Positions 10,527 through 37,797 of a DNA stretch of 64,000 nucleotides are shown one piece after another; positions within the stretch are counted from its first letter, which is position 1; each line of letters starts with the position of its first letter. Made by a program: the position numbers and the translations under genes. Source of the stretch: Symbiodinium natans (taxonomy: Eukaryota > Sar > Dinophyceae > Suessiales > Symbiodiniaceae); the NCBI GenBank assembly GCA_905221605.1, contig CAJNDS010001657.1:1-64000 (forward strand), written 5' to 3'. Below the pieces are notes generated by a model. That model was not told the DNA's origin. It was given only the letters and a program-made list of their open reading frames with translations, and did no database searches.

Positions 10527-11093
10527 CTATGAGCCTGTCTGGCACGAACATGTGAAGTGCTTCGCATGCTGCCTCGCCCTGAGCCCTGCCTTCTCGATGC
10601 CCAATCTCCCAGCGACATCATACGCGATCTGGACCGCTGTTTTACCCCGACAGTCCAAAGGGACAAGCGATGGTGGCAGCTTCATGTGGACAAGGGCCTG
10701 ACCCACCCCGTGTTGATCGTGGGGATGATTTTCACCGAAGGGGGGCATTGGAGGATAGGTCTCTTCCACTCGCAGGGGAAGCACGTCGATGTCGTTGTCC
10801 AGCGCGTATCGAAGCTCCTTGTGCGAGGAGTACTGTGACGATGTCACTTCGGCATAATCCCAGGTACAAACTCCCAGGATGATGCCTTGTTCACGCTTAA
10901 TCCGGCCTAGGCAGGCCATCGTATTGTGTCCCAGGTCAGCTCCCGCATCTGTATCCACCACCACCACCTCGTAGTTGCGCAAGGTCAGGATCTGTTGCAC
11001 AGCCTGCATCTGCCTCATCACCGATGCATTGTTGAATCGTCGCGCGGATAGCATAGCCAGGCGAGTGCCAACGCCATCTGGGATGTCGCTGAC
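10527..11093 (-). CDS. TIR-like domain exon, copy 1
   Basis: The exon starts after the acceptor-like GCCAG at 11094 with residues VSDIPDGVGTRLAMLSARRF, homologous to copy 2, and stays open for 188 codons. Order of elements: strand A (RLAMLSAR), helix, strand B with a loop (VVVVDTDAGADLG, BB-loop position), strand C (IILGVCTWDYAE), then SSQYSSHKELRYALD and a hydrophobic strand before EETYPP. This matches the TIR fold; the Glu in SSHKE sits where NAD-cleaving TIR domains carry their catalytic Glu. TIR domains act in innate immune signalling or as NADases; which applies here is not shown. The frame ends at a TAG where copy 2 reads GAG, followed by a small deletion, so the C-terminus may be truncated. 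Other exons were not found. Confidence 0.6.
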   Translation of the reverse strand, partial: VSDIPDGVGTRLAMLSARRFNNASVMRQMQAVQQILTLRNYEVVVVDTDAGADLGHNTMACLGRIKREQGIILGVCTWDYAEVTSSQYSSHKELRYALDNDIDVLPLRVEETYPPMPPFGENHPHDQHGVGQALVHMKLPPSLVPLDCRGKTAVQIAYDVAGRLGIEKAGLRARQHAKHFTCSCQTGS

Positions 11094-13208
11094 CTGGCGC
11101 GTTTCGACGGAACGCTTCACTGCACAGACATACCCCCGATTTCTTGACCCAAACGCGGTGGGCAGGTCCTGTGGGCTTGTCTCCGCGGATATTTCTTCTA
11201 CCTTGTAAAGAAGCGAGGGCTTATCCTAAATGGAGCTGCGCATAAAGTTGACCCCCCCGACGCTACCGGGCCCCACAGTAAAACAGTTGATGACAACAGC
11301 ATAGAAAATGAAGGTAGTACATGTGGACTTGGTGCTCAAAATCGACTTGGACGTGTTATGCTTGGAATGAAGATTGGACTGTGAGCTGCTTTGCCTTAAT
11401 TCGGGTCATGCAGGACTTGGCATGTTTCGAGGCTCTCTAAGCGCTCGCAGCTGCGACGAACTATTGTATCTATAAGTGTTGCCGCATATTGTTTGGAATT
11501 GTCAGATCTAGCTGAACACTCGTCAGGGGTATGAGCAAAGTGGCACCCATGTTTTTTTGTGCCTACGGCGGACACTCAGGAAAATCAGGGCATGGATCTT
11601 GTCATACTTTCTTGTGTGAATGCATGTTGCCAAGCTCATCAGAATCATGCACCACCTACCAGGGCTTCTGGCAACTTCGGAAAGAAGCGAGTCTGCTTTA
11701 CATCCGGCAGTCCCTGCACTCGACAATCCCGAAGCATGAGGGACGCCGCCTTCTAACCCCGAAAACTCCTACATTCACTCCAAACGAAACAGATCACCAC
11801 GGGAGATGAAAGAATCCAAGGGTCAACGACCAGCGTATCATCCGCCCCCTGACCAAAGTACGCATCAGAAGGAATGTGCAGCATATCCAACCAACCTAAC
11901 CCGCCTAGCATAAGGAACCCCACGTCGCATCTTGTTTTGGACAAGTGGCTGGTGGGGGCTATGTCTGGCCTGTGTCTTATGAGCATACTGAAACACGTAG
12001 CCTGCTGACGGTGTTGCGAAGCAGAGAGGGATTAAGAAACTCGTCGTGGTAGCCCCTGCCAATAATTCGACCAGGGGTTGACCGGACGCATGCTTGCTAC
12101 TGGTAGATCTTAACAGGCTGTACAACAATGGCTTAAACAGACTACCAGGCTTCGTGCAAGCTGTCAATCGAGCATACTTTCACACCTGAAATGTTACGGG
12201 TGAACCAGCTATCTGCACAGGATTGAAGCCTAAAGCGAAGTCTGCAAGCCAACTGTGAGGCGTGCATGTCCTGCAAAAAATGCGCAGCAGTCCCCGGAGG
12301 CACGCCAGGAAGTCTGGGAAGAGTGCTTCGGAACAGTGTTCGCTGGCCACACAGTCTGGACAAGAAATGGCTTGTACTACAGCGGTGAATCCCGGCTGTG
12401 AGTTTCCTTCTTGTTGCCTGTGTGCAGATGCGCAGCCACGTGGCAAAGCAAACAAGCGTGCCGTCAACTACGACGATCGCCACCGTGCAGTGCAGCATGC
12501 AGCGCAGGCCACACGGATACACGGGATCTGGTCATCAGCAACCGTGCGAAGCATTTATTTGTGTCTGACTGTGTAGCTGCTAGTGTGGCGAAAGTGCAAC
12601 TATTGGTCCCGCTGCCCTTGCTTTGGCGGATGCTGTCTCTTTGCAGCCTTCATCATGGGCAGGATGAAATGCTCAAGCCGCCTCCGCCTCCATGCTTGAG
12701 ACAGGCCTGGTCACGCAAAGAAAGCTGTTGAAGCTGTTGAAGACCAAGCCCAAGTTCCTGGTGCGGTATCGCCTGAAGAGACTGAGGGAACGCGTCAGGC
12801 AGTGAAGACACTGCTTGTGGATTCCTCCTTCTCTTCTAAAGCAGGCCAGTCAAAGCACGAGCAGAGCTCACAGCCCAAGATTGTACTTACACCTACACAC
12901 GGTCCTATGCAAGCATTAGTGATTGCGGGATGTTGTTGCAGATAAACGTGTTGGGCACCTTTGTGCTGCAAATACCAAGTCTTTCCTGTCACTGGCTGTC
13001 GGAGCTTGGTTGCGTCCCTGTGCAGAAGACGAGAACGATGGGACGGTCCAGGCCGCACTTGCAATGGTACTCAAGTTCGGCATGACCCTGGACCATGCAA
13101 GAATGTGACCTATGCAACACATGGCCCAGGTAAGTTCACCGACCCATCTCATGTTTTTCCTTTAAAAAAATGACGTGTGAGGCACCTCCTCACCCCAAAG
13201 CCTGAGCC
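11094..13208. other. Between the TIR-like copies; no recognisable gene
   Basis: 11094-11180 (start of intron upstream of copy 1) is clearly related to 13989-14130, so the duplication includes non-coding DNA. The rest has short ORFs on both strands without recognised domains. Confidence 0.4.
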
Positions 13209-13988
13209 CTAGGTGTCCTCTGACCCTAAACAAAGAAGCACATCGCATTCCTGCTTCGGTGCATGCAAACAGGGGCTGCGATTGTGAGCAGGTGAATGCT
13301 TGTGGCTGAAGGCTTTCAAGCTCTGGCCTCTGCTTCTCGAGGCCGGTTCGATGCCAACGATGTCGTGGAGCGCATCTTCACCAGAGCCTGTGACCCAGAG
13401 CTTACTCAGCAACAGACTCCCACACTCTGAGCCTGTCAGGCACGAACATGTGAAGTGCTTCGCATGCTGCCTCGCCCTGAGCCCCGCCTTCTCGCTGCTC
13501 AATTCTTTAGCCACAGCGGTTGCAATCTGCATGGAAGTCTTTTCTCTGCAGTCTAGATAGACAAGCGATGGTGGCAGCTTCATGTGGACAAGGGCCTGGC
13601 CCACCCCCTGTTGATCATGGGGATGATTTTCACCGAAGGGGGGCTGTGGAGGGTAGGTCTCTTCCACTCGCAGGGGAAGCACGTCGATGTCGTTGTCCAG
13701 CGAGTAGCGAAGCTCCTTGTGCGAGGAGTACTGTGACGATGTCATCTCGGCGTAGTCCGCTGTGCAGACTGCCAGCATGACTCCATTCTCTTCTTTGACT
13801 TGGTGCAGGTACTTCAACGTCAAGTCACCAAAGTCGTCGCCCGCACTTGCCTGGACAACTAGAACCCTGTAGTTGCGCTCTGCCAGGATCTTCTGCACAC
13901 TTCGCATCTGCATCTCTACTGGCCCACCATTAAATCTCGCGGAGATCATGGCCAGACGAGAGCCGGAGCCATCTGGGATACTGCTCGC
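13209..13988 (-). CDS. TIR-like domain exon, copy 2
   Basis: Starts after acceptor-like GCCAG with ASSIPDGSGSRLAMISARF and runs 259 codons. It has the same TIR-like plan as copy 1: strand A, helix (MQMRSVQKILAERNYR), loop ASAGDDFGD, strand C VMLAVCTADYAE, then SSQYSSHKELRYSLD with the putative catalytic Glu, and LPLRVEETYPP. From SSQYSS to HAKHFTCSC the two copies are nearly identical, while their first halves differ at many residues. It continues about 80 residues beyond the copy 1 stop, with a Ser/His-rich, featureless tail. The donor site may lie before the ORF end, so part of that tail could be intron. Function as a TIR signalling protein or NADase is inference. Confidence 0.6.
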   Translation of the reverse strand, partial: ASSIPDGSGSRLAMISARFNGGPVEMQMRSVQKILAERNYRVLVVQASAGDDFGDLTLKYLHQVKEENGVMLAVCTADYAEMTSSQYSSHKELRYSLDNDIDVLPLRVEETYPPQPPFGENHPHDQQGVGQALVHMKLPPSLVYLDCREKTSMQIATAVAKELSSEKAGLRARQHAKHFTCSCLTGSECGSLLLSKLWVTGSGEDALHDIVGIEPASRSRGQSLKAFSHKHSPAHNRSPCLHAPKQECDVLLCLGSEDT

Positions 13989-15125
13989 CTGGCACGAGTC
14001 CGATTTGCTAGATTAGGGTAGGGAAATGAAAGGGCGGAAAGACACCAGGGCGACCGAACGCTTCACTGCACAAACACACCCCAAATTCCTGACCTAAACG
14101 TGGCTGGCAAGTCCTGGGCTTTGGCATCCTCGAATTCAGGCACCTCAAAATGCGAGATTTTGGACCTCAATAAAAATGATACTGCTGCTTCCGGGACCAG
14201 GTCCCCATGGAGACCAAGCCGAGAGCAGCACGACACGCTGCTTGCGCTTGCACAAGCACCAAACCAAGAAGCAGCAGGATACCAGGAGGCAAGTGGACCT
14301 GGAGTCTTGCTGCAACATCACCGTGCCTGCAAATAGCGATCCCCCCAAAACTGCTTAGCTGGAAGAACATGCCTTCACAACCATGCATTTGCGATGGTTC
14401 CCAGCACCTCGATAAGCCCGGCCAGGCCTTGCCTAGGCCTCTGCAGCTGAGGGGCAGCGAGGATATGACCACGACGACAGCGACATCTGCCTCGCAGCAG
14501 ACTTTCAAATCGTGAAAGGAAAGTTTTCTCAGATCAAGGCAGACACGGGGCCTTGTCCTGGCTCTCGCTTTCGCCATCGGCCTGGAGAGCCAAAATCTTT
14601 GACAGATCTTCTTCGCCCTGACAGACTCAACAACACTTCGCCCCAACCATCTAATTCATGCTGTACCAACAGAATCCTCGGCGCAAGTACCGCAAACAGC
14701 AACCGATTGACAGGTTGGCCTCCTGGTCGTCCACTTCCTGCCAGGGAAAAGTGGTCGGGCAAGGCCTTTCTCAGGCCTTATGCTGATTCTTGGCCTCTCC
14801 TTTGAAGCCCCACCTCCCCCAACTTCCTGGCAGCTTTCTGCACCCATAGTTTTTACCCAGATTGTCCCTTGGCCTCACGAGCCGCTGGATGATGTCTCTG
14901 AACTCTGGCGAATTGCCGACACGAAGAGAATTCCGAATTCACTTCAACATGGTCTGCTGGCTACAGGATCTGCCCAGTCGGGCGTTATACGAGAGATTGG
15001 TTTGGTCCTAGTTCTGCACCCATAGCAAGAGCCATCGTCATAGACTGTGAGGGTGAGTACCCAAGAAGAGTGCGTTGTTCGGGGCTTGCGCTGTTTCTTG
15101 GGGTCTCCTTCCCACCCACACCGCC
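13989..15125. other. No recognisable gene
   Basis: Upstream flank of TIR copy 2. A 159-codon minus-strand ORF (14167-14646) with a hydrophobic stretch (PPGILLLLGLVLVQA) could contain an exon, but no domain is recognised. Confidence 0.35.
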
Positions 15126-25512: not shown

Positions 25513-25571
25513 TCACTCTGATGCTCTCCTGCTACAGGCCTCGATGGTGGTTGTGCCAGCACTGCTAGTAC

Positions 25572-25608
<37 letters not shown>

Positions 25609-26412
25609 AGTCGCGGCGCCAGCGACGCTGCTCGTAGTAGTGCTGCGGATAGTGGCAGTACCGGTGCAGCTGCGGGTAGTGGCAGTAGCAGTGCTGCCGG
25701 TGGTCGTGGCAGTGCCAGTGCTGGTGGTACGAGTGCTAGTGCTGGTGCTGCTGCTGGTGCTGGTGCTGGTGCTGGTGGTGGTGGTGGTGGTGCTGCTGCT
25801 GCTGGTGGTAGTCGCGGCGCCAGCGACGCTGCTCGTAGTAATGCTGCGGATAGTGGCAGCACCGGTGCTGCTGCGGGTAGTGGCAGTAGCAGTACTGCTG
25901 GTGGTGCTGGTGGTCGTGGCAGTGCCAGTGCTGGTGGTGGTGGTGGTACGAGTGCTAGTGCTGGTGCTGGTGCTGCTGCTGCTGGTGGCAGTCGCGGTGC
26001 CAGCGATGCTGCTCGTAGTAGTGCTGCGGATAGTGGCAGTACCGGTGCTGCTGCGGGTAGTGGCAGTAGCAGTGCTGTTGGTGGTCGTGCCAGTGCCAGT
26101 GCTGGTGGTGGTAGTGGTGGTCGTGGTCGTGGTGGTGGTGCTAGTGGTCGTGGCGGTACCGGTGCTGCTGCTGGTGGAAGTGCTGGATGTACTGGTAGAA
26201 GAGGTCGACGTGCTTGTCGCGCTGGAAGATGAACTGGTCGTGGATGTTGTGCTCAAAGACGTACTTGTGGCAGAAGTGCTAGATGTACGTGTTGATGAAG
26301 TCGACGTGCTGGTTGTAGATATGGACGCGGTGGTTGTGGAACTCTTTGAAGCGCTTGTGCTTGTGGCCGTCTGGCGGCGGACACGCTTTACAGAATCCAG
26401 GTGGTGTTAAAA
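25513..26412 (-). CDS. Ser/Thr-rich low-complexity ORF on a trinucleotide repeat
   Basis: About 300 codons open on the minus strand, starting after a stop near 26412 with a short mixed sequence (SVKRVRRQTATSTSAS) and then almost only Ser, Thr, Ala and Gly. At DNA level it is an AGC/ACC-type trinucleotide array with a higher-order period of about 200-230 bases (shared blocks at about 25610, 25815 and 25990). Such Ser/Thr tracts can be O-glycosylated stalks of surface proteins, and the ORF sits on the same strand as the kelch gene upstream and the cysteine-rich gene downstream. The opposite strand is equally open (Val/Leu-rich, 301 codons), so translation is uncertain. Confidence 0.35.
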
Positions 26413-26695: not shown

Positions 26696-29600
26696 CTACA
26701 CGGCCTCAGTGTCCAAGGACCGAAGGTCGTTCGGGTAGCCTCGGCCGCAGCACCGCTCTCAAAATCCCTCCGCTCGCTCAACAAGCATGCAAGAATCGCC
26801 GAGGACCTGACCGCTGCCATCGAGTCCGCCGAACACCCACATCTCCCCGGCTGTGGTAACCACAGCGGCGTGATACATCCGGGCACTGGGCGAAGTGCCA
26901 CCAGGGCTCCTGTCCACCCACGTGGGCGTTGCAGCCTGCCAGCAGAGAAGGCAGAGCTCGCCGCAACACAGGGCGACTCGAGGGTGCCTGCATGGGGGCT
27001 GGCGCCCTCCATTAACAGCTCCAGATGCGCAAAAAAACACATCAAGCAGCAACGATGTGACGGGCACCGCAAGGTTGAGATGAAGCGCTGTAGAGGGGAA
27101 GCTGTGTAGCAAATGCCAGACATCGCATTCTGCTCGCTCTCGAAATTTCCCTTGAAAACGGTATTTCTCCATGACGCATGCTTTGCAGCTTTGGGCCTAC
27201 CTTGCTGAAGCCTTTGGAAGGCGCAATTCGAGACCAACTTGAACCCTCGAATGCCACCTAGAATCCCTAATTGGGGTTTGCACATTTTTGCACCATTTCC
27301 ACCCTGCATCCCGGCAGGCCCTCACATGTGTGATGAACCTTGGAGAATTTCAGAAACTGCGATGGCCACCCTGATCCATGCCTGGGTGTCCAAGGACCAA
27401 AGGTCATTCAGCCTGGGGCCTCGGCCGCAGCACTGCTCTCAAAATCCCTCAGCTCGCTCAACAAGCATGCAAGAATCGCCGAGGATCTGGCCAGCGTGTC
27501 CGCCGAACACCCACATCTCCCCGGCTGTGGTAACCACAGCGGAGTGACCATACCGGGCACTGGGCGAAGTGCCACCAGGGCTCCTGTCCACCCACGTGGG
27601 CGTTGCAGCCTGCCAGCAGAAAAGGCAGTGCTCACCGCAACACAAGGCGACTCGAGGGTGCCTGCATGGGGGCTGGCGCCCTCCATTAACAGCTCCAGAT
27701 GCGCAAAAAACACACATCAAGCAGCAACGATGCGACGGGCACCGCTACTCCGACGTGGCTCAAACAACGCTCCGATAACACGGGTCACCTCCCGCAAGGC
27801 TGGGATGAAGCGCTGTAGAAGGGAAGCTGCATAGCAAATGCCAGACATCGCATCGCATTCTACCTTGCTGAAGCCTTTGGAAGGCGCAATTCGAGACCAA
27901 CTTGGCTTCAAACTTATGTTCCCTCGAATGCCACCTAGAATCCCTAATTGGGATTTACACATTTTTGCACCATTTCCACCCTGCATCCCGGCAGGCCCTG
28001 CACATGTGTGATGAACCTTGGAGAATTTCAGAAACTGCGATGGCCACCCTGATCCATGCCTGGGTGTCCAAGGACCAAAGGTCATTCAGGAAGCCTCAGC
28101 CGCAGCACTGCTCTCAAAATCCCTCCGCTCGCTCAACAAGCATGCAAGAATCGCCGAGGACCGAACTGCTGCCATCGTATCCGCCGAACACCCACATCTC
28201 CCCGGCTGTGGTAACCACGGCGGAGTGACGAGACCGGGCACTGGGCGAAGTGCCACTAGGGCTCCTGTCCACCCACGTGGGCGTTGCAGCCTGCCAGCAG
28301 AGAAGGCAGAGCTCGCCGCAACACAGGGCGACTCGAGGGTGCCTGCGGCTGGCGCCTTCCATTAACAGCTCCAGATGCGCAAAAAAACACATCAAGCAGC
28401 AACGATGTGACGGGCACCGCTACTCCGACGTGGCTCAAACAACGCTCCGATAACACGGGTCACCTCCCGCAAGGTTGAGATGAAGCGCTGTAGAGGGGAA
28501 GCTGTGTAGCAAATGCCAGACATCGCATTCTGCTCGCTCTCGAAATTTCCCTTGAAAACGGTATTTCTCCATGACGCATGCTTTGCAGCTTTGGGCCTAC
28601 CTTGCTGAAGCCTTTGGAAGGCGCAATTCGAGACCAACTTGAACCCTCGAATGCCACCTAGAATCCCTAATTGGGGTTTGCACATTTTTGCACCATTTCC
28701 ACCCTGCATCCCGGCAGGCCCTCACATGTGTGATGAACCTTGGAGAATTTCAGAAACTGCGATGGCCACCCTGATCCATGCCTGGGTGTCCAAGGACCAA
28801 AGGTCATTCTGCCTGCCTCGGCCGCAGCACTGCTCTCAAAATCCCTCCGCTCTCTCAACAAGCATGCAAGAATCGCCGAGGACCTGGCTGCTATTGTCTC
28901 CGCCGAACACCCACATCTCCCCGGCTGTGGTAACCACAGCGGAGTGAAAATACCGGGCACTGGGCGAAGTGCCACTAGGGCTCCTGTCCACCCACGTGGG
29001 CGTTGCAGCCTGCCAGCAGAGAAGGCAGAGCTCGCCGCAACACAGGGCGACTCGAGGGTGCCTGCGGCTGGCGCCTTCCATTAACAGCTCCAGATGCGCA
29101 AAAAAACACATCAAGCAGCAACGATGTGACGGGCACCGCTACTCCGACGTGGCTCAAACAACGCTCCGATAACACGGGTCACCTCCCGCAAGGTTGAGAT
29201 GAAGCGCTGTAGAGGGGAAGCTGTGTAGCAAATGCCAGACATCGCATTCTGCTCGCTCTCGAAATTTCCCTTGAAAACGGTATTTCTCCATGACGCATGC
29301 TTTGCAGCTTTGGGCCTACCTTGCTGAAGCCTTTGGAATGCGCAATTCGAGACCAACTTGGCTTTCAACTTATGTTCCCTCGAATGCCACCTAGAATCCC
29401 TAATTGGGGGGTTCACACATTTTTGCACCATTTCCGCCCTGCATCCCGGCAGGCCCTCACATGTGTGATGAACCCTGGAGAATTTCAGAAACTGTGACGG
29501 CCACCCTGATCCATGCCTGGGTGTCCAAGGACCAAAGGTCATTCAGCCTGGGGCCTCGGCCGCAGCACTGCTCTCAAAATCCCTCAGCTCGCTCAACAAG

Positions 29601-30476
29601 CATGCAAGAATCGCCGAGGATCTGGCCAGCGTGTCCGCCGAACACCCACATCTCCCCGGCTGTGGTAACCACAGCGGAGTGATATTGCCGGGCACTGGGC
29701 GAAGTGCCACTAGGGCTCCTGTCCACCCACGTGGGCGTTGCAGCCTGCCAGCAGAGAAGGCAGAGCTCGCCGCAACACAGGGCGACTCGAGGGTGCCTGC
29801 GGCTGGCGCCTTCCATTAACAGCTCCAGATGCGCAAGAAAACACATCAAGCAGCAACGATGTGACGGGCACCGCTACTCCGACGTGGCTCAAACAACGCT
29901 CCGATAACACGGGTCACCTCCCGCAAGGTTGAGATGAAGCGCTGTAGAGGGGAAGCTGTGTAGCAAATGCCAGACATCGCATTCTGCTCGCTCTCGAAAT
30001 TTCCCTTGAAAACGGTATTTCTCCATGACGCATGCTTTGCAGCTTTGGGCCTACCTTGCTGAAGCCTTTTCAATGCACAATTCGAGAAGCGGATGAAGCA
30101 GTTGTCCAACTTAGCTTCGAACTTCTGTACCCTCGAATGTCACCTAGAAGCCCGATTGGAGTTTGCACTATTTCCGCCCTGCATCCCGGCAGGATGAACC
30201 TTGGAGAATTTCAGAAACTGTGACGGCCACCCTGATCCATGCCTGGGTGTCCAAGGACCAAAGGTCATTCAAAAAGGGGCCTCGGCCGCAGCACCGCTCT
30301 CAAAATCCCTCCGCTCGCTCAACAAGCATGCAAGAATCGCCGAGGACCGAACTGCTGCCATCGTATCCGCCGAACACCCACATCTCCCCGGCTGTAGTAA
30401 GCACAGCGGAGTGACTATGCCGGGCACTGGGCGAAGTGCCACTAGGGCTCCTGTTCACCCAGGTGAATGTTGTGGC
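26696..30476 (-). repeat. Six tandem exon-intron units, 674-735 bp each, one kelch blade per unit
   Basis: Unit starts, taken at the acceptor-like GGCAG|GCTGCAACG on the minus strand, lie at 30476 (variant GCCACAACATT), 29744, 29009, 28290, 27609 and 26935. Coding and intron parts are nearly identical between units 1-5. Differences are mostly small intron indels, for example a 72-base segment missing from unit 2, and three short variable segments in the coding parts. This is an internal tandem duplication of whole exon-intron units. Confidence 0.9.
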
Positions 30477-30699
30477 CTGGCGGCTCGAGCGTCCAAAAAT
30501 CGGTCAGAGCTGCAAACATGTCCGAATCCCCTCTTGCAGCCTGCAGTCCCACAAAGATGTCAACAGACGGGCAGTAGCCTTGAAGAAGAATATGCCCAAG
30601 AAAAATCCACTGCCCGTCCACGTGTGATAACAATAGGAGAATTGGGTTCGGGATCCTGCCTGAGGACAATAATGGAAAACAATTGGAAGCAATGGGCAA
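26696..30699 (-). CDS. Kelch-repeat (beta-propeller) protein, six tandem blades
   Basis: Each unit codes TPTWVDRSPSGTSPSAR, two variable residues, HSAVVTTAGEMWVFGG and a variable loop, then, about 75 bases on, a variable start to NDLWSLDTQ. This matches the kelch pattern (double Gly, later Trp, Ar-x-x-His before the strand). Joining GG-loop to NDLWSLDT requires removing a short segment containing an in-frame TGA; GT or GC donors with a GAG|GC acceptor fit in phase. An AG|GC donor after SLDTQ joins in phase to the next AG|GCTGCAACG acceptor. The last blade ends NDLRSLDTEAV and a stop at 26696-26698. An upstream exon (about 30484-30550) has LTDFWTLE, half a blade, but meets unit 6 out of frame. 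Six blades would close a propeller, a binding scaffold. No BTB, F-box or other partner domain was found; 5' exons may lie beyond 30.7 kb. Binding partner is unknown. Confidence 0.65.
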
Positions 30700-30849
30700 T
30701 GGTGGAACTCATGGAACAAGAGTGGAACACTAGTGAAAACAGAATGTGAATAGAATGAGAACAGCCTGAAAGAACGACAAACCTACCCAAGCAATACTGC
30801 CATCGGCCTACGATGGTCAGGTGATACAAGGGCCATGCCTCTGGCATCC

Positions 30850-32215
30850 TCTTATAATCTCTTGCACAACCACACGAGAAGCCCTACAACATGTGCAAGC
30901 TGAGGTTGTACTTGTCATTCTGGTAGATAGGTTTCGCCTCTACTGTTTTGGACTCATCATACTCAAACAACCGCTTTCCTTCTCGCTCTGATAATCACTT
31001 GGCCCTGTTGAAAAGGCTAAGGATAACGACGTCAATGACACTGCCAATAATCTTCACAGTAGTCCCTAAACCCTAAAATCCCCCTCTAGGGGCCGCTGGG
31101 GTCCCGGCCACTGGCAGCTTTGAGCAGAGCCTGAGCCCGGAGACTGCAAACTTCGAGAAGTAGAAAGGGTCAGTTGCGGCAGTGGTGATGAAAGGGTCAA
31201 TTCTAGTAATATTAGTAGTGGTGGTGGTGGTTTTACTAAAGCAAAGCCATCTCCTGCCATCCGTATGGTTTGTTTTTGTACTCACGAGGGGAATCCAAAG
31301 AGCCTGCGCCCTCCTCGTCCTCCAGCTCCCCCCACGCTCTTCTACTCCACAAAACTTCGGCAGGCAGCGGGAGAGGACATTCGATGCCGGAGAGAATCTT
31401 AAAATCATGGCCATTGGACCCGATGTCTCAGCGATCTATAGGATTCCCTATCGTTTGGGAGATCTGGGGTTAAGCGTGGGCCTTCGACAACAACCGACAG
31501 GAAACTTTGAACGCTGGCTGGTTGACAGCGGGCAGCGCCACCTGGTTTTTTTGTGGATCTCCGGGCAGAAAGAACCAATGCGCGTCCTAACAGTGATATG
31601 TCAAAACTAGATCTCGCTCGAAACACTGCATACATACAACAGTCATAGTCTTGAGTTCATTCATTCTGGCACCGTCCACTTGGGGCCATTTGTCCAGAGT
31701 CAAACACTGGATTTTGCGGTGGCCTTGACAGCGCTGGCAGCACATGTAGTGTTTGCAGCAGTGGGTTCAGCCCCATAGGCAATAAGAGCTACAAGCCTTA
31801 TGCCAGCCCAAACCGTTTGTAGCCAACAAGGAATACAACAACGACTACACTCCCAGCCACAGCGCAACATCACATGGGAATAGCTGTTGAAATGCTCAGC
31901 TGATGTGGCAACATACAGCAACACTTGAGAAGGGGCTACGAAAGCTAGTCACCACAGGGGGGTGGCAGGCAGCGAGTCGGCAGGACTTGGAGCCGCCGGC
32001 GCAGCTTTTTCCGTATTTCAGGCACATGCCTCAACCGGTTAGTCAGGTAAGATCGAAGACCCCTAAATTCGAAATCTGAAGCCCTAAACTCCTTCAGCCC
32101 CCTTGCTGCCCCCGCTGGAACCCCGTGTCGCAAACGAAGTTTAGGTACAGGGACGCTCTGTTCAGTACGACCTCTGCAAAGTACCACAGACCTTCAGAGC
32201 ATGGTGACTGTGGGG
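30850..32215. other. No recognisable gene
   Basis: Holds a short telomere-like scrap (CCCTAAACCCTAAAATCC near 31065) and a plus-strand 142-codon ORF (31182-31610). The first third of that ORF is a GGT repeat translation; its last part (IMAIGPDVSAIYRIPYRLGD) is protein-like but unrecognised. Confidence 0.35.
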
Positions 32216-32412
32216 GGCGGGGGAGGACCTTGGGGGGGGGTGGGGGGGGACCTTGTGGGGGGGGGGGACCTGAAGGTGGTAGGGGGGGGGCGCTCCCTTA
32301 TCCCACGCGCAACCACCTTAAAGGAGGGGGGGGGGGGGGGCGCCGGCACCTTATCCTTCGAAAATGCTTCATGGTGAGGTGAGGGGGGGGGGGGGGGGGC
32401 CCCCCCCCCCAC
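32216..32412. repeat. Poly-G tract cluster
   Basis: At least seven runs of 7-18 G within 200 bases, separated by words such as ACCTT, followed directly by a run of C. Could form G-quadruplexes, and could equally be a region of poor sequencing accuracy. Confidence 0.85.
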
Positions 32413-32617
32413 CCCCACCTTAAGTCTTGGGTTTCGGACCTGTTAAGGTGTGGAACCCTTTTTTTCCCTGGAAGCTTCTTAACAAGGTGAATACCAGTGC
32501 ATGGGTAAACGACAACTCCCGCCAGCTCCACAGAGCTAGCTTTCGTGACAGCTGAAGCCATATATATACATATATATATATATGGATATATAACATGGTT
32601 CAGCGTCGGGCGTTCCC

Positions 32618-32619
<2 letters not shown>

Positions 32620-32654
<35 letters not shown>
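32620..32654. repeat. Poly-C homopolymer (35 bases)
   Basis: Uninterrupted C run just left of the telomere-like tract that hosts the LTR element. Homopolymers of this size are prone to length errors. Confidence 0.9.
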
Positions 32655-32656
<2 letters not shown>

Positions 32657-32667
32657 GTCTACTCTAC

Positions 32668-32718
32668 GGTCCCTAAACCCTAAACCCTAAACCCTAAACC
32701 CTAAAGCCCTAAACCCTA
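32668..32718. repeat. Telomere-like (CCCTAAA)n, left flank of LTR element
   Basis: Five nearly perfect CCCTAAA units ending in CCCTA, which is the 5-bp target duplication of the retrotransposon. The same array resumes at 38030 on the other side. Confidence 0.9.
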
Positions 32719-32936
32719 TACGGGGGGCAACCGAAGGAGGACAGGGAACAAAACAGTCAACCCCAACAGAAGCCCTTGATCCCCTGGACCAACCAACAAC
32801 AAACCAACCCAAAACACCAAGCACCCTTTCTTCTCTAGGCGCATGGCCCGATCTTGAGCCAAAATGGTAGCGGGTACATTGACCCCTTTATCCTTCTACA
32901 CCAACTTTTTCCTTCAATACAAATTGCAGCTCCGCA
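32719..32936 (-). repeat. 3' LTR of the copia element
   Basis: Same 218 bases as the 5' LTR. Absence of visible differences points to a recent insertion, since the two LTRs are copied from one template and diverge afterwards. Confidence 0.92.
32853..32873 (-). promoter_or_regulatory. Dinoflagellate spliced-leader-like sequence in 3' LTR
   Basis: Same motif, at the same offset, in the second LTR. Confidence 0.75.
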
Positions 32937-32946
32937 CTCCCCCTGT
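32937..32946 (-). other. Polypurine tract
   Basis: Sense strand ACAGGGGGAG abuts the 3' LTR, the expected position for plus-strand priming. Confidence 0.75.
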
Positions 32947-33127
32947 CCTAGGATTTCCTAGGACACAAACTGGAGGTGCAGACTTTTGGGCCAAAAGCTG
33001 TCATTAAGGCAGCAGCCAGCTGCTTGGAATGCATGTTATGGTTTAACGTCTTTCCAGGACGAACCTTCAGCTCATTGGCCGAATCCCTTACCATTGAGGA
33101 TTTTTTCACCTCACATTTGAAAAAAGT

Positions 33128-33769
33128 CTACGTTCCAGCGACCCGTTCCTCACCAAGGAACTCAGCATTCACCACCCAGCCATCCTTGAGGCAATGCTTA
33201 CAAAGCGTCTTAGCCCTGGGCTGTGAATGTGGAAAAACATCACAGTCACTGCTTGCGTGCATACAGTTTCCACCCACCGTTGTATACAAAGTGGCACTCG
33301 CGGGAATAACCACCACTTTCTTGACCCACAGCCATCTATACAGCCGCCGAAAGAGGCACCAGGCCAATTCCCAGAGTATAATCGCTGCCACCAAATATGC
33401 AACAAGGTCTGCATTGCTGGTAACCATTTCAATACCTTGAGCCAGAACCATCACCGCAGATGTGTTGGCGACCCTGCACACCCCTTCTTCGGAGCAAAAG
33501 AATCCAGCAATCGACGCTTCTTCCCCACCAGTTGCCATCCCTTGCAGAGATGCAGCCACCATCATGACCGCCATTGCAAGAGAGGCCCTTTTCAAGTCAG
33601 TTCCTTGCACCAACATTTGGAGACCCCAAAGCGCCTTTTGCTTTGCATAAACCTGTCCACTCATCAATTTTGTCAACAGGTCCGCAATCATATACTCACC
33701 ACGAAGGTGCGCTATCACCATGTAACCACTCATCAGCAGTTCCACACCTTGAATGCACCGCCACGTCAT
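33128..33769 (-). CDS. RNase H remnant fused to C-terminal membrane/Cys region
   Basis: The start holds the end of copia RNase H (GEYMIADLLTKLMSGQVY, KALWGL). Then come a hydrophobic stretch (LVAYLVAAIILWELAWCLF) that could span a membrane, a basic RRLYRWLWVKK, and CMHASSDCD with a later CKHC that may bind zinc. Similar tails occur after RNase H in other dinoflagellate copia polyproteins as I recall them. The fragment overlaps the end of the protease/methyltransferase frame by about 70 bases and is +1 to it, the scar of the internal deletion. Confidence 0.65.
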   Translation of the reverse strand: MTWRCIQGVELLMSGYMVIAHLRGEYMIADLLTKLMSGQVYAKQKALWGLQMLVQGTDLKRASLAMAVMMVAASLQGMATGGEEASIAGFFCSEEGVCRVANTSAVMVLAQGIEMVTSNADLVAYLVAAIILWELAWCLFRRLYRWLWVKKVVVIPASATLYTTVGGNCMHASSDCDVFPHSQPRAKTLCKHCLKDGWVVNAEFLGEERVAGT

Positions 33770-36158
33770 ATAGGAAAAGCATCTTCAGAAGTAAAACACC
33801 ATCCTTTTGAGCTAATTCTTGATGTGGCCAAGGAAGACTTTTTAATCCCAACCGTTCAGGTCCACAGCGCCGGCGTAGTACAGGTGGACCACCGTCTTCA
33901 CCTCTCAACCTTGACACTGTCCTGCATGGAGGTCCTCCAACCACAGCAACCACCTTTCCTTCAGCCGCCAGATGCAGAAGATACTTCCAGACGCTCGAAT
34001 TATGTAGGTCTCCGCCTTTCTTCAAATCCAGCTCCAGTACCTCCACATCCCGACTGGGAAAATGCCATTTTTGTTTTCCTGAAAATAGGTGTACCACCAC
34101 CCTTTTTGCTCGTGCCAGCCGTCTCCGTTTATGACGGTTGAAAGGCAACGCCGCAATATCTCCACGTGGCAACAGCTCCATCAGCATATTTTCTGGTATA
34201 TCCCCATAATACCACCGAAGAAATCGCCAACATGCCTGGACGAACTCCTCCTCATTCGCTGACGCTGTCCGCGCTGCGCTTTGCAACGACGCTTTTACGG
34301 CCACCTCATTGTCCGTATTCGGACACCCTTGAACCATACGTGCCACCTTCAATGCTTGCTTTGGTGAACACCAATCCATTTCATCAATGATCTGAAGCGC
34401 CACCTCCTTTTCCAAACAAGGGCACCCATTCAGATCACGAACGCGAAGTTCCCCCAGAACAGGATGTGAGGCTGTGCACTTGCCACCACGCCACTGAACT
34501 CTGAGACCAACCAAAGCGCTCGCTTTGCCAATTGGCACTAGTGGATCTACCATTTCAGGAGTTACCAGGGTCCCACCTGGGGTAATACACATCTCCCGAG
34601 ACCCAACAGCTAAAGACACCAACACCTTTTGCTGCGGAAGCTGTTCACCAGGACGAAGTGATCTGAGAGGATGTGATGCTCCCGAGTCCAACATGCCCAT
34701 TCCCGAACACTCATTGGTGTCAGAAACCCTGGCCACATGTAGAACGCATACTCCTCGGCCTTCTCCCTGCTTCGGCAACAACGTGGCATCAGACGAACCG
34801 ACTCCACAGTCCGCCCTTCCATTCCTCCATTGAGAATGGGACCAAGATGCACACTGCCTTTCAGCATGCAAAACCATCTTTTCAGCTGTTTTGTAATCCA
34901 TAACCAAACAGCCATGTTCAAACCACAAGAGCTGGTCCAGCGAAGATTTTGCACTCACGTGACACATCCCATTGATCACGGTGAGGTTCGCCCCAAACTC
35001 AAAAATCAACCAGAGAGGGATAATCAGATTGTCTTGCCTGATCAATGTCCCTTTCTCTGTAATCCTCATTGTCACACCACCAAGTGCGCTTTGCACCATA
35101 ACAGTAGTGTCGGGTAAACATTCCCATGGAAAAAGCGTCCGCACAAGATGCGTAGCAGCTGTATCCACCAACGCCACTCTCCCTTCCTGCTGAAACAACC
35201 CAGAGCCACATAACATTCGAACACTGGGATCCCCGCTTGATGCTGACTGCGCTGATGACAGTTTCATAGATTTCAGCACCTCTAACGCTTCAGCAAGGAC
35301 CTGATTGGGTGTTGATGGTGATGAGGGACTTGCAGAACCTTTCTCCAATCCCGCATTAGCCGTCTCATCTCCCCCTTCAGCCACTTCTGCCTTTTTGGCA
35401 TTTCCCCATTTTGCACCTTTGCCGCCCTTTCCCCCTTTGGGAGAATTCCCTTTAGATCTATTCCTTTCGGGATTTGAGTCCACATTGGAACTTGCACCAT
35501 CTTTGTATGGACACTGCGGCTGTAGATGGCCAACGGCCCCACATTCAAAACATCTTCCACGCTCCAGGGAGTCCTTGTCATGGCGAAATTTGCAGCGTGA
35601 TCCGAACTTGCAGCCTGCATCTGTCTTCCCAAATATCCAACAGAATGGACGTTCACCATCACCGCTGTACCTTTTTCCTTTCCCTTTGCCTTTGTCACCC
35701 TCCTCTGTCTCGTCACCAGTTCCCTTTTGGGCCTTGTTTAACCTTGCCCTTTTCTTGGCGTCCGAGTCCTGCTTCACCTCTGGGTCACCAGCGCTATGCA
35801 ATAGCAGTTCAAACTCTGCTTGTAACATTTCAGCTAGTTGTGTCGCAGTTTCAGAGGTCGGCGAGTAGTCCACCCCCAATTTCTCCCGAAAGGATGCCAC
35901 TCTGAAATGCACCGTAGGGTGTTTTGCCAGCGACGCGGATGATAAAGCATCCAATCCCCTGATAAGCAAGGTAGCGTCCGGCTCGGATGCTCGCAGCTCG
36001 CTTAATCGGGAACGCCATTGCGCCCATTGACGCACTCCCTTAATAGCCTCTGAGATCGAGGTTGCTGAAGATGGTTGCACCAAGAAGTTTAACATTGTGC
36101 TGCGCTCGTTTGCTCCACCTGGTTGGTAGACTGTCAGCAACTTGTAACATATCATCAC
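33696..36158 (-). CDS. pol: Gag end, zinc knuckles, tandem retropepsins, C5-methyltransferase-like domain
   Basis: 820 codons in the frame -1 to gag. Order: rest of gag (YKLLTVYQPGG); a CCCH finger (C-x9-C-x5-C-x3-H, about residues 173-194); a CCHC knuckle (CFECGAVGHLQPQC); Ser/Gly/Lys-rich linker; a first protease-like segment (ALVDTAATHLVR); a second with the standard active site (GMLDSGASHPLRSL); then a helical spacer and a segment with VVHLFSG and VVGGPPCRTVSRLRG. The last pair resemble motif I and the catalytic Pro-Cys motif IV of cytosine-5 methyltransferases, which have been reported in retrotransposons of dinoflagellates. Integrase and reverse transcriptase should follow, but the frame enters RNase H sequence out of phase near 33770 and stops. 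The protease would cut the polyprotein; methyltransferase activity is inferred only from motifs. Confidence 0.8.
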   Translation of the reverse strand: MMICYKLLTVYQPGGANERSTMLNFLVQPSSATSISEAIKGVRQWAQWRSRLSELRASEPDATLLIRGLDALSSASLAKHPTVHFRVASFREKLGVDYSPTSETATQLAEMLQAEFELLLHSAGDPEVKQDSDAKKRARLNKAQKGTGDETEEGDKGKGKGKRYSGDGERPFCWIFGKTDAGCKFGSRCKFRHDKDSLERGRCFECGAVGHLQPQCPYKDGASSNVDSNPERNRSKGNSPKGGKGGKGAKWGNAKKAEVAEGGDETANAGLEKGSASPSSPSTPNQVLAEALEVLKSMKLSSAQSASSGDPSVRMLCGSGLFQQEGRVALVDTAATHLVRTLFPWECLPDTTVMVQSALGGVTMRITEKGTLIRQDNLIIPLWLIFEFGANLTVINGMCHVSAKSSLDQLLWFEHGCLVMDYKTAEKMVLHAERQCASWSHSQWRNGRADCGVGSSDATLLPKQGEGRGVCVLHVARVSDTNECSGMGMLDSGASHPLRSLRPGEQLPQQKVLVSLAVGSREMCITPGGTLVTPEMVDPLVPIGKASALVGLRVQWRGGKCTASHPVLGELRVRDLNGCPCLEKEVALQIIDEMDWCSPKQALKVARMVQGCPNTDNEVAVKASLQSAARTASANEEEFVQACWRFLRWYYGDIPENMLMELLPRGDIAALPFNRHKRRRLARAKRVVVHLFSGKQKWHFPSRDVEVLELDLKKGGDLHNSSVWKYLLHLAAEGKVVAVVGGPPCRTVSRLRGEDGGPPVLRRRCGPERLGLKSLPWPHQELAQKDGVLLLKMLFLYDVAVHSRCGTADEWLHGDSAPSW

Positions 36159-37651
36159 CGACCCAACATTCGAGTGGAAACGATCTCGGTCTTCAATCTC
36201 TCCGGAATCGCCTGTAGCAGCAAAGACACCGCTCTCTGCTCCAACAAAACATGCACAGTTCGAACCACCTTGAGCCCTTCCAGCTCAGCCTTGATGCCCA
36301 ACCTTTCCAGCGGAGAGACACTCAACCATTTGGCGTACGCCTGATACGCCTTTGTATAGACGGATTGCCACCACACTCTTCCTGTATCTGTCAGCGAAGA
36401 CAACATTGGCTCGATCATTGCGATCCAATCACCTAGTGCCGTCGGATTGCTTGGTGTGTAGTCTGCCAAAGTAGGAAGGCTCATCACATGCTTCCCAAGA
36501 GCCTCCGGACGTTCAGTTCCAGAACTATCACCAATGTTTGGCATACCACGTGGCACTACTGCTCCAGGAGGTAAGCTGACCCTTCCACCAGGCCCTTGAG
36601 GCAGTCCATGTCCCATTCCAGGCGTAAAAGCTGTGAGCGGAACCTTTTCTAATTCCAACTTCCCAGCGATCATTTTCCACCGATATGGAACATCATCCAC
36701 CATTGTATATCCACCCGATCCTGCTGGGTTCTCTTGCGTCGAAGTTTCCCGAGCTGAAACAAAACCGGGCTGATTTCCCATCGGTGCGGCAGAACCATCA
36801 ACACCTGACGGCAAGGAAGGAATCGGAACATGTGTTAAACCAGGTGGTCCACTTGCATATCCACCACTTGCAGAACCTCCCATGGGGTAATTCAATGGAG
36901 GCAATCTGGAGGGTTTCTTCCCTTCAGCTACGTGCATCATTGGCACTTCTTTTTCATCCTCCACATGAGCATCCCCTTTCCTGGGCTCAGGCAAGGGTTG
37001 AAGGTCACAACCCTTGGGCAGGTCGTAGCCCTCAATCGGCAGCCATGTCCCATCAGGCAACACAGTCCAAAAACCACCCATACCATCAGTGTAGAAAACT
37101 TGTCCTGGCGGGTACTGTTTCTCTGGAGTCATTCCCAAAGGATATGCAGCATTTGCGTCCACCACTCCAGTGCTCCGTGCTCTTGAAGCTGACCCAGATG
37201 CAGCAGAGGTATAGCTTTTCTCCTCCACCCGATGCAACCTGTTTCCCAGCTCCTTTGTTTGCACAAGCAACTCTTTAAGTGCACGCTTAACCACTGCCAT
37301 ATCTTCACCTTGTTCTTCACCACTCAGATCAGGAATAAGCTCTTCCTCGCCTTGTGTCTCACCAATATTACCTCTTTCCATCTGGCCCATTAAACCTGAC
37401 GATGGCCTCTCAGCTGGTGCAGGTTCCCGATCCCGAAGTTCTGGCAACGACGGTGGCCTTCTTGTTTCTTCACCACTTCTATCCCCTCCGCTCGCAGGAA
37501 GACTTGCTGGCCTTGATTGCCTCAGTCTCATTTCTTCATGAGCCCGCTCGCTCCAGAAAGGATTCGCTGCTGGAAACGGAACGGCTTCATTTTCCACCTG
37601 AGACGTTTGTTGTATCATTGCAACTTCCCTACCATCTGTCAGTGCTTGCAC
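36155..37651 (-). CDS. gag: Gag, N-terminal part
   Basis: This 498-codon frame codes a capsid-type protein. A low-complexity, Pro/Gly/Glu-rich N-terminal half with a short coiled coil (VKRALKELLVQTKELGNRL) is followed by a helical region, IAMIEPMLSSLTDTGRVWW and ERLKTEIVSTRML, typical of copia gag in dinoflagellates. The first codon shown is GTG; the first in-frame ATG is a few residues later, and the frame is open upstream to a stop near 37795, so the start is not fixed. It ends in TGA while the next frame continues the same domain at -1. The join therefore is either a programmed frameshift or a single-base loss in the TTGGGTCGG stretch. Confidence 0.8.
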   Translation of the reverse strand: MQALTDGREVAMIQQTSQVENEAVPFPAANPFWSERAHEEMRLRQSRPASLPASGGDRSGEETRRPPSLPELRDREPAPAERPSSGLMGQMERGNIGETQGEEELIPDLSGEEQGEDMAVVKRALKELLVQTKELGNRLHRVEEKSYTSAASGSASRARSTGVVDANAAYPLGMTPEKQYPPGQVFYTDGMGGFWTVLPDGTWLPIEGYDLPKGCDLQPLPEPRKGDAHVEDEKEVPMMHVAEGKKPSRLPPLNYPMGGSASGGYASGPPGLTHVPIPSLPSGVDGSAAPMGNQPGFVSARETSTQENPAGSGGYTMVDDVPYRWKMIAGKLELEKVPLTAFTPGMGHGLPQGPGGRVSLPPGAVVPRGMPNIGDSSGTERPEALGKHVMSLPTLADYTPSNPTALGDWIAMIEPMLSSLTDTGRVWWQSVYTKAYQAYAKWLSVSPLERLGIKAELEGLKVVRTVHVLLEQRAVSLLLQAIPERLKTEIVSTRMLGR

Positions 37652-37797
37652 CCCTTGCTGTCGTTCTTCACCCCCATCACCACGATTTTCTTCGGCTTCA
37701 TTGGCCGCGGATGAAGTCCAGGTTCTGAGCGACGCCGCAACATGTCCATGGCGCGGAACAAACCAAAAATCCTTACCTATTCCGCAGGAAGCCTAAT

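Follow-up and report, generated by a model that had tools for sequence, protein, structure and literature searches.

Six near-identical kelch units with divergent loops at a predicted binding face in a tandem array of the dinoflagellate Symbiodinium natans

How can six tandem units of one gene be almost identical, introns included, and still differ at three short segments that are expected to face a ligand? This question is raised by the minus strand of positions 26696-30476 in the window, that is, the whole stretch of 64,000 nucleotides analyzed here, at the start of a Symbiodinium natans contig (C1657). Each of the six tandem kelch units was found to comprise an exon A of 130, 133 or 136 bases and an exon B of 35 or 38 bases, separated by intron 1 (60 bases). 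Intron 2, of 446-507 bases, lies between units and is present in five of them. When joined, the 12 exons of this predicted gene give a single open frame of 340 residues, followed by AV and a TAG stop. In the order of the protein, and all on the minus strand, unit 6 (the first blade) consists of exon A at 30341..30476, encoding ATTFTWVNRSPSGTSPSAR-HS-HSAVLTTAGEMWVFGG-loop, and exon B at 30243..30280, encoding G-PFL-NDLWSLDTQ. It is followed by unit 5 (exon A 29615..29744, exon B 29517..29554), unit 4 (28877..29009 and 28782..28816), unit 3 (28155..28290 and 28060..28094), unit 2 (27480..27609 and 27382..27419) and unit 1, the last blade (26800..26935 and 26696..26739), whose exon B encodes G-YP-NDLRSLDTEAV and the TAG stop.

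A GC-AG reading is possible for 11 of the 11 introns, including intron 1 of unit 4 (28817..28876, minus strand; 60 bases, as in all six units) and intron 2 of unit 5 (29010..29516, minus strand), and the same splice sites are usable in every unit. GT-AG boundaries for intron 1 were considered by eye and dropped: a GT is missing at this place in units 2 and 5, and the frame is broken in units 1 and 3. For unit 4 alone, the GT-AG choice would preserve the frame. GC-AG was adopted because it fits all six units, which GT-AG does not. The preliminary description had taken length changes in multiples of three as a sign of coding constraint, and this holds, as all exon length changes preserve the frame, which stays open through the 12 exons. 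This open frame and the kelch matches described below rule out a chance match or a non-coding repeat. The ends of intron 1 are complementary (CCTCGGC / GCCGAGG in five units, one base off in unit 3; read by eye, with flanking exon bases counted), and a GGC repeat at both edges of the intron (e.g. 28817-28876) gives it, by eye, an introner-like look.

The C-terminus of the kelch gene, LDTEAV, resembles the LNTEV end of its Durusdinium relative P0001, and both stop at the same place. Directly downstream of the stop lies a Ser/Thr-rich open frame of 297 residues (25516-26406, minus strand), beside Cys-rich frames at about 20-24 kb, and this frame is perhaps another surface gene. Its fusion to the kelch frame was not adopted because the TAG at 26696-26698 falls where P0001 also ends. 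On the opposite side, a start scan of 30476-33200 gave 14 starts, the most hydrophobic of which (32844, 42 residues) could, judging from its sequence, be a signal or membrane segment. Elsewhere in the window, the minus-strand frames at 10530-11225 and 13212-14012 look related, and the latter matches TIR_2 weakly, at 20.1 bits against a cut-off of 28. Long minus-strand frames at 33131-37792, among which 33699-36284 has zinc-knuckle and CCCH matches below cut-off, perhaps belong to a retroelement, and a direct repeat with a 642-base period at about 1124-2996 carries the same open frames in three successive copies. Nothing was found when the whole 64,000-nucleotide window was scanned for Rfam families and tRNAs.

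With regard to the variable segments, the two codons after Ala-Arg encode six dipeptides that are all different, at the positions given in the preliminary description: from the N- to the C-terminal unit, HS at the end of the DA loop of unit 6 (30414..30419), QY in unit 5 (29682..29687), YF in unit 4 (28947..28952), SR in unit 3 (28228..28233), YG in unit 2 (27547..27552) and MY in unit 1 (26873..26878), all on the minus strand. The BC loop, on the same strand, reads YDGSSS in unit 6 (30347..30365), HAGQ in unit 5 (29621..29633), DNSSQ in unit 4 (28883..28898), YDGSSS in unit 3 (28161..28179), HAGQ in unit 2 (27486..27498) and LDGSGQ in unit 1 (26806..26824). From unit 1 to unit 6, the loop lengths of 18/12/18/15/12/18 bases stated previously were found again; the boundary used here takes in one additional base, which is a G or an A. 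Likewise, the linker before NDLW has 6 or 9 bases by our boundary and 5 or 8 by the earlier one.

The proposal that these units form a kelch propeller was borne out by Pfam, which matched the 340-residue frame with PF24681 (247.2 bits, cut-off 50) and Kelch_1 (119.3 bits, cut-off 20.1), and by the presence of six blades, as in a six-bladed kelch fold. RCC1_2 (46.3 bits, cut-off 22) and Pro_racemase (60.5 bits, cut-off 27) also scored above cut-off, and we take both as repeat artefacts because no stretch passed alone. Among the Pfam matches of this frame, which covers the 12 kelch exons without an N-terminal exon, there was no NACHT/STAND or death-effector domain, and no BTB/BACK or EloB/C-box. 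The AB turn, TTAGE, is identical in six of the six blades. In a structural model of the relative P0001 (pLDDT 90.9), the variable sites either immediately precede strand A or lie between strands B and C, and in published kelch structures the substrate face is formed by the DA and BC loops. On the basis of this model and these structures, the variable segments are expected to be the DA and BC loops and to line the ligand face, in keeping with the KEAP1-type ligand face to which they had been assigned.

The distribution of the differences was examined by counting variable gap-free columns, in the inner units U2-U5 unless U6 is named. The named loop segments together vary in 17 of 26 columns (two-codon site 5/6, BC loop 8/13, linker 4/7), compared with 2 of 138 in the remaining exon frame and 29 of 440 in the introns (intron 1 3/60, intron 2 26/380). 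Aligned base by base, substitutions are thus not evenly spread: as had been claimed, the units are near-identical except at three segments, and the loops have diverged more than the introns. A Fisher test of loops against introns gave p = 6e-13, a value that is too small because the segments were named after seeing these data. When positions were shuffled, the densest window of 6, 13 and 20 columns was reached in 151, 5 and 192 of 20000 shuffles, respectively. The statement that introns are as conserved as exons stands roughly when U6 is added (rest of the exons 11/138 vs introns 39/415 variable, p = 0.73), but not within U2-U5, where variable columns are rarer in the exon frame than in the introns (p = 0.017). 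Most exon-frame changes sit in the end units U6 and U1, and intron 2 has several indels.

The contrast is also visible between single units. Unit 4 differs from unit 2 at 1 of 441 positions in intron 2, 2 of 60 in intron 1 and 1 of 138 in the frame, with 2 differences in the 6 bases of the two-codon site and quite different loops. Across all six units, 4 of the 60 columns of intron 1 vary, and as this near-constant intron lies between two variable segments, the variation follows the codons, or the protein, rather than the DNA neighbourhood. A cluster of changes in intron 2, seen by eye beside a deletion (columns 518-522), also reaches 5 in 6 columns and counts against loop specificity.

At the codon level, the changes in the loops mostly alter the protein. 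Of the 30 codon pairs at the two-codon site, 28 are nonsynonymous, two are identical and none is synonymous; the 12 aligned codons of loop and linker give 147 pairs, 97 nonsynonymous and 8 synonymous, and the differences number 78, 61 and 29 at the first, second and third codon position. The nine DA and BC codons have 7, 5 and 2 variable columns at the three positions and require at least 11, 7 and 3 changes, of which, by our own count, 1 in 21 is synonymous. With about 4.8 synonymous and 19.7 nonsynonymous sites, the nonsynonymous excess that had been predicted for the loops was found, at a crude ratio near 5 for this small sample of nine codons. At the two-codon site, T occupies ten of the 12 third positions, whereas the first and second positions vary.

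Several observations concern exchange between the units. In the four-gamete test, 94 of 253 pairs of informative intron columns fail, a count in which the columns of one indel were entered singly, so that the pairs are not independent. Unit 2 has a mosaic structure: the stretch that runs from its BC loop across intron 1 as far as the linker matches unit 5, whereas in its intron 2 the 5' part matches unit 4 and the 3' part matches unit 3. The mutually incompatible intron columns and the mosaic unit 2 indicate that the units have exchanged pieces. Units 2 and 5 have identical loops and units 3 and 6 the same BC loop, yet the two-codon sites differ within both pairs; judging from these sequences, loop segments can be transferred as cassettes. 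Near-identical introns and mosaic units also support the earlier suggestion that whole units, introns included, were copied or homogenised. A DNA search of the 759-Mb assembly (2543 contigs) with unit 4 returned this array only, at 7 places; as one first-look candidate was scored, further copies are not strictly excluded.

At the protein level, a search of the genome with two blades gave at least 95 matches, six of them in the window array (best 150 of 232 candidates scored). A second array, on contig C2461 (78001-98000; loci L046 and L047), has 12 single-blade exons with variable loops and an intron that seems to be at the same place. Between its blades, identity averages 0.86 over the 16 strand A and B residues and 0.08 at the two-residue site. 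Four of six aligned copies from this array of twelve were compared, k01 (other frame) and k04 (deletion) having been left out: they differ at 0-2 of 48 strand bases, at 1-4 of the 6 bases of the two-codon site and, over the 70 bases that follow the loop, at 15-28 of 63-70. This array therefore repeats the contrast between frame and loops, but its loops are not clearly beyond its introns. One of its units, at contig position 88449, shows a partial loss of the segment that precedes the variable site. In a pair of whole-gene paralogues on C240, nonsynonymous change was not significantly higher in the loops (p = 0.12 and 1.0), and positive selection was thus not seen in these paralogues. Eight loci with PF01344 matches elsewhere in the genome were examined: L001, L003, L004 and L006 look like ordinary diverged kelch proteins, and L002, L005, L007 and L008 gave no frame by the filter used.

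To place the gene among other kelch proteins, blades were surveyed in 268 proteins (267 among the matches listed in three lists, and this one), of which 187 gave four or more blades by a regular-expression pattern; only frame positions were scored. The kelch-gene product ranked first of these 187 in frame identity between blades, at 0.95, the others among the matches listed having a median of 0.43, a 95th percentile of 0.66 and a maximum of 0.91. Such blade identity, far above the usual, is that of a highly repetitive propeller. Identity between blades at the two-residue site is 0.07, and the median for the 68 other kelch proteins scored is 0.08. The two-residue site varies in kelch proteins generally, so that what is odd here is the homogenised frame in which these loops, of ordinary-looking variability, are set. 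Four other kelch proteins (P0004, P0005, P0149 and P0167), probably of bacterial origin, likewise have a conserved frame together with loops and two-residue sites that vary.

The best match in a first search of a large protein set was P0001 of Durusdinium trenchii, with 50 percent identity. Other matches carried the label Symbiodinium, which, like the GC-AG introns, is in keeping with the dinoflagellate origin of the window. At the protein level, P0001 and P0134 have the same blade plan as the window gene. The source label of P0134, symbB.v1.2, is one that we take to be Breviolum minutum; its four scored blades share their frame (0.91), making it the runner-up of the survey. Each dinoflagellate relative seems to have a frame of its own, which its blades share. 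Translations read by eye show a hydrophobic N-terminus with Ser/Thr-rich stretches in P0001 and C240, and a hydrophobic N-terminus with a hydrophobic stretch nearer the C-terminus in P0134, and C1288 has an ephrin-receptor-like domain (28.5 bits, cut-off 23.1). On these features the relatives look extracellular, and by analogy the product of the window gene may be extracellular as well.

We consider it probable that this gene encodes a six-bladed kelch propeller in which recombination makes the frame and introns uniform and selection maintains the differences between the loops. In such a mechanism, the propeller would bind some putative partner through the face formed by its DA and BC loops. 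As each blade corresponds to one exon pair, whole units could duplicate, recombine and convert each other, and this exchange would keep the blade frame and introns nearly identical, while selection would keep or drive differences at the loop codons and give each blade a different contact patch. The support comes from six units of one haplotype, and in one array selection and recombination are not cleanly separable. A recent amplification of a single blade, followed by fast, positively selected point mutation of the loops with little later exchange, would account for a frame private to each dinoflagellate relative, as in published independently amplified propellers, and the third-position T in 10 of 12 cases at the two-codon site fits recent common descent. 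We nevertheless regard it as rather unlikely, since the incompatible intron columns and the mosaic unit 2 attest to exchange and the loops are identical in 2/5 and 3/6 with differing two-codon sites; mosaic units favour ongoing exchange over amplification with fast loop change. Both of these readings need something that favours loop differences because drift should not pass the intron rate. That the loops are merely free of constraint and drift around a conserved frame, with nothing favouring differences, would agree with C2461, where loops and introns are about equally divergent and strand codons nearly constant, and with the general variability of two-residue sites in kelch proteins. For the window array, in which loop divergence is about ten times that of the introns (17/26 vs 29/440) and so exceeds what drift should give, this reading is already disfavoured, and we hold it to be improbable.

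The very sharp edges of the variable segments might point to a mutational mechanism aimed at the loops, through a hotspot or templated replacement. A targeted mutator is unlikely because few of the changes fall on third codon positions and because the 60-base intron that separates two variable segments hardly varies; the genome search moreover gave no second unit copy as donor (one first-look candidate scored), and we find this reading barely credible. Finally, near-identical tandem units are hard to assemble, and the scan of 30476-33200 gave no assigned N-terminal exon, as might be expected of an assembly artefact or a decaying pseudogene. This is very doubtful in view of the in-frame length changes, the common splice sites, the 12 open exons, the stop where P0001 ends and the presence in the genome of another array that follows this exon plan.

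The arrangement had been presented as not described previously, which needs to be qualified. In the WD40 NLR sensors het-d/het-e (HNWD) of Podospora anserina, concerted evolution maintains the high identity of the repeats, and particular codons at the predicted interaction surface are under diversifying selection (PMC12222747, PMC4986451), and highly repetitive beta-propellers, kelch included, have been amplified from single blades (PMC9218822). As in HNWD, the blades of the window gene are nearly identical, exchange between repeats has occurred (four-gamete test, mosaic unit 2) and a few codons at the predicted binding face are hypervariable. The HNWD repeats are WD40 repeats, vary in number in populations and form part of a NACHT receptor; the window gene, in contrast, is a kelch gene with intron-split blade exons, no NLR domain found in its frame and one haplotype known. 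The propellers of PMC9218822 likewise have near-identical blades within each protein and a frame private to each; the word 'intron' is absent from its main text, whereas the introns of the window gene provide a neutral yardstick, which the loops exceed. No kelch case like this one was found in the literature, among the listed matches of open-licence PMC papers as represented by title and start of abstract.

The kelch receptors KLHDC2, LZTR1 and KEAP1 have diverged blades and serve ubiquitin ligases; for the window gene, the Pfam matches of the 340-residue frame formed by the 12 kelch exons gave no BTB domain. As its blades are split by introns, a neutral yardstick lies inside the repeat, and selection on a propeller binding face becomes measurable in one gene. 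Dinoflagellates, coral symbionts included, must recognise partners and prey, and to our knowledge they have few known receptor families whose faces are diversified. The combination of a uniform frame and a varied binding face suggests a recognition protein. More tentatively, and with the odds against it, the gene may belong to a dinoflagellate family of surface kelch propellers whose exon cassettes each encode one blade and whose arrays exchange cassettes and keep the DA and BC residues diverse, as a kelch equivalent of the WD40 sensors of fungi. If so, such a family would provide a variable, strain-specific repertoire for the recognition of mates, prey, symbiosis partners (symbiont-host) or pathogens.
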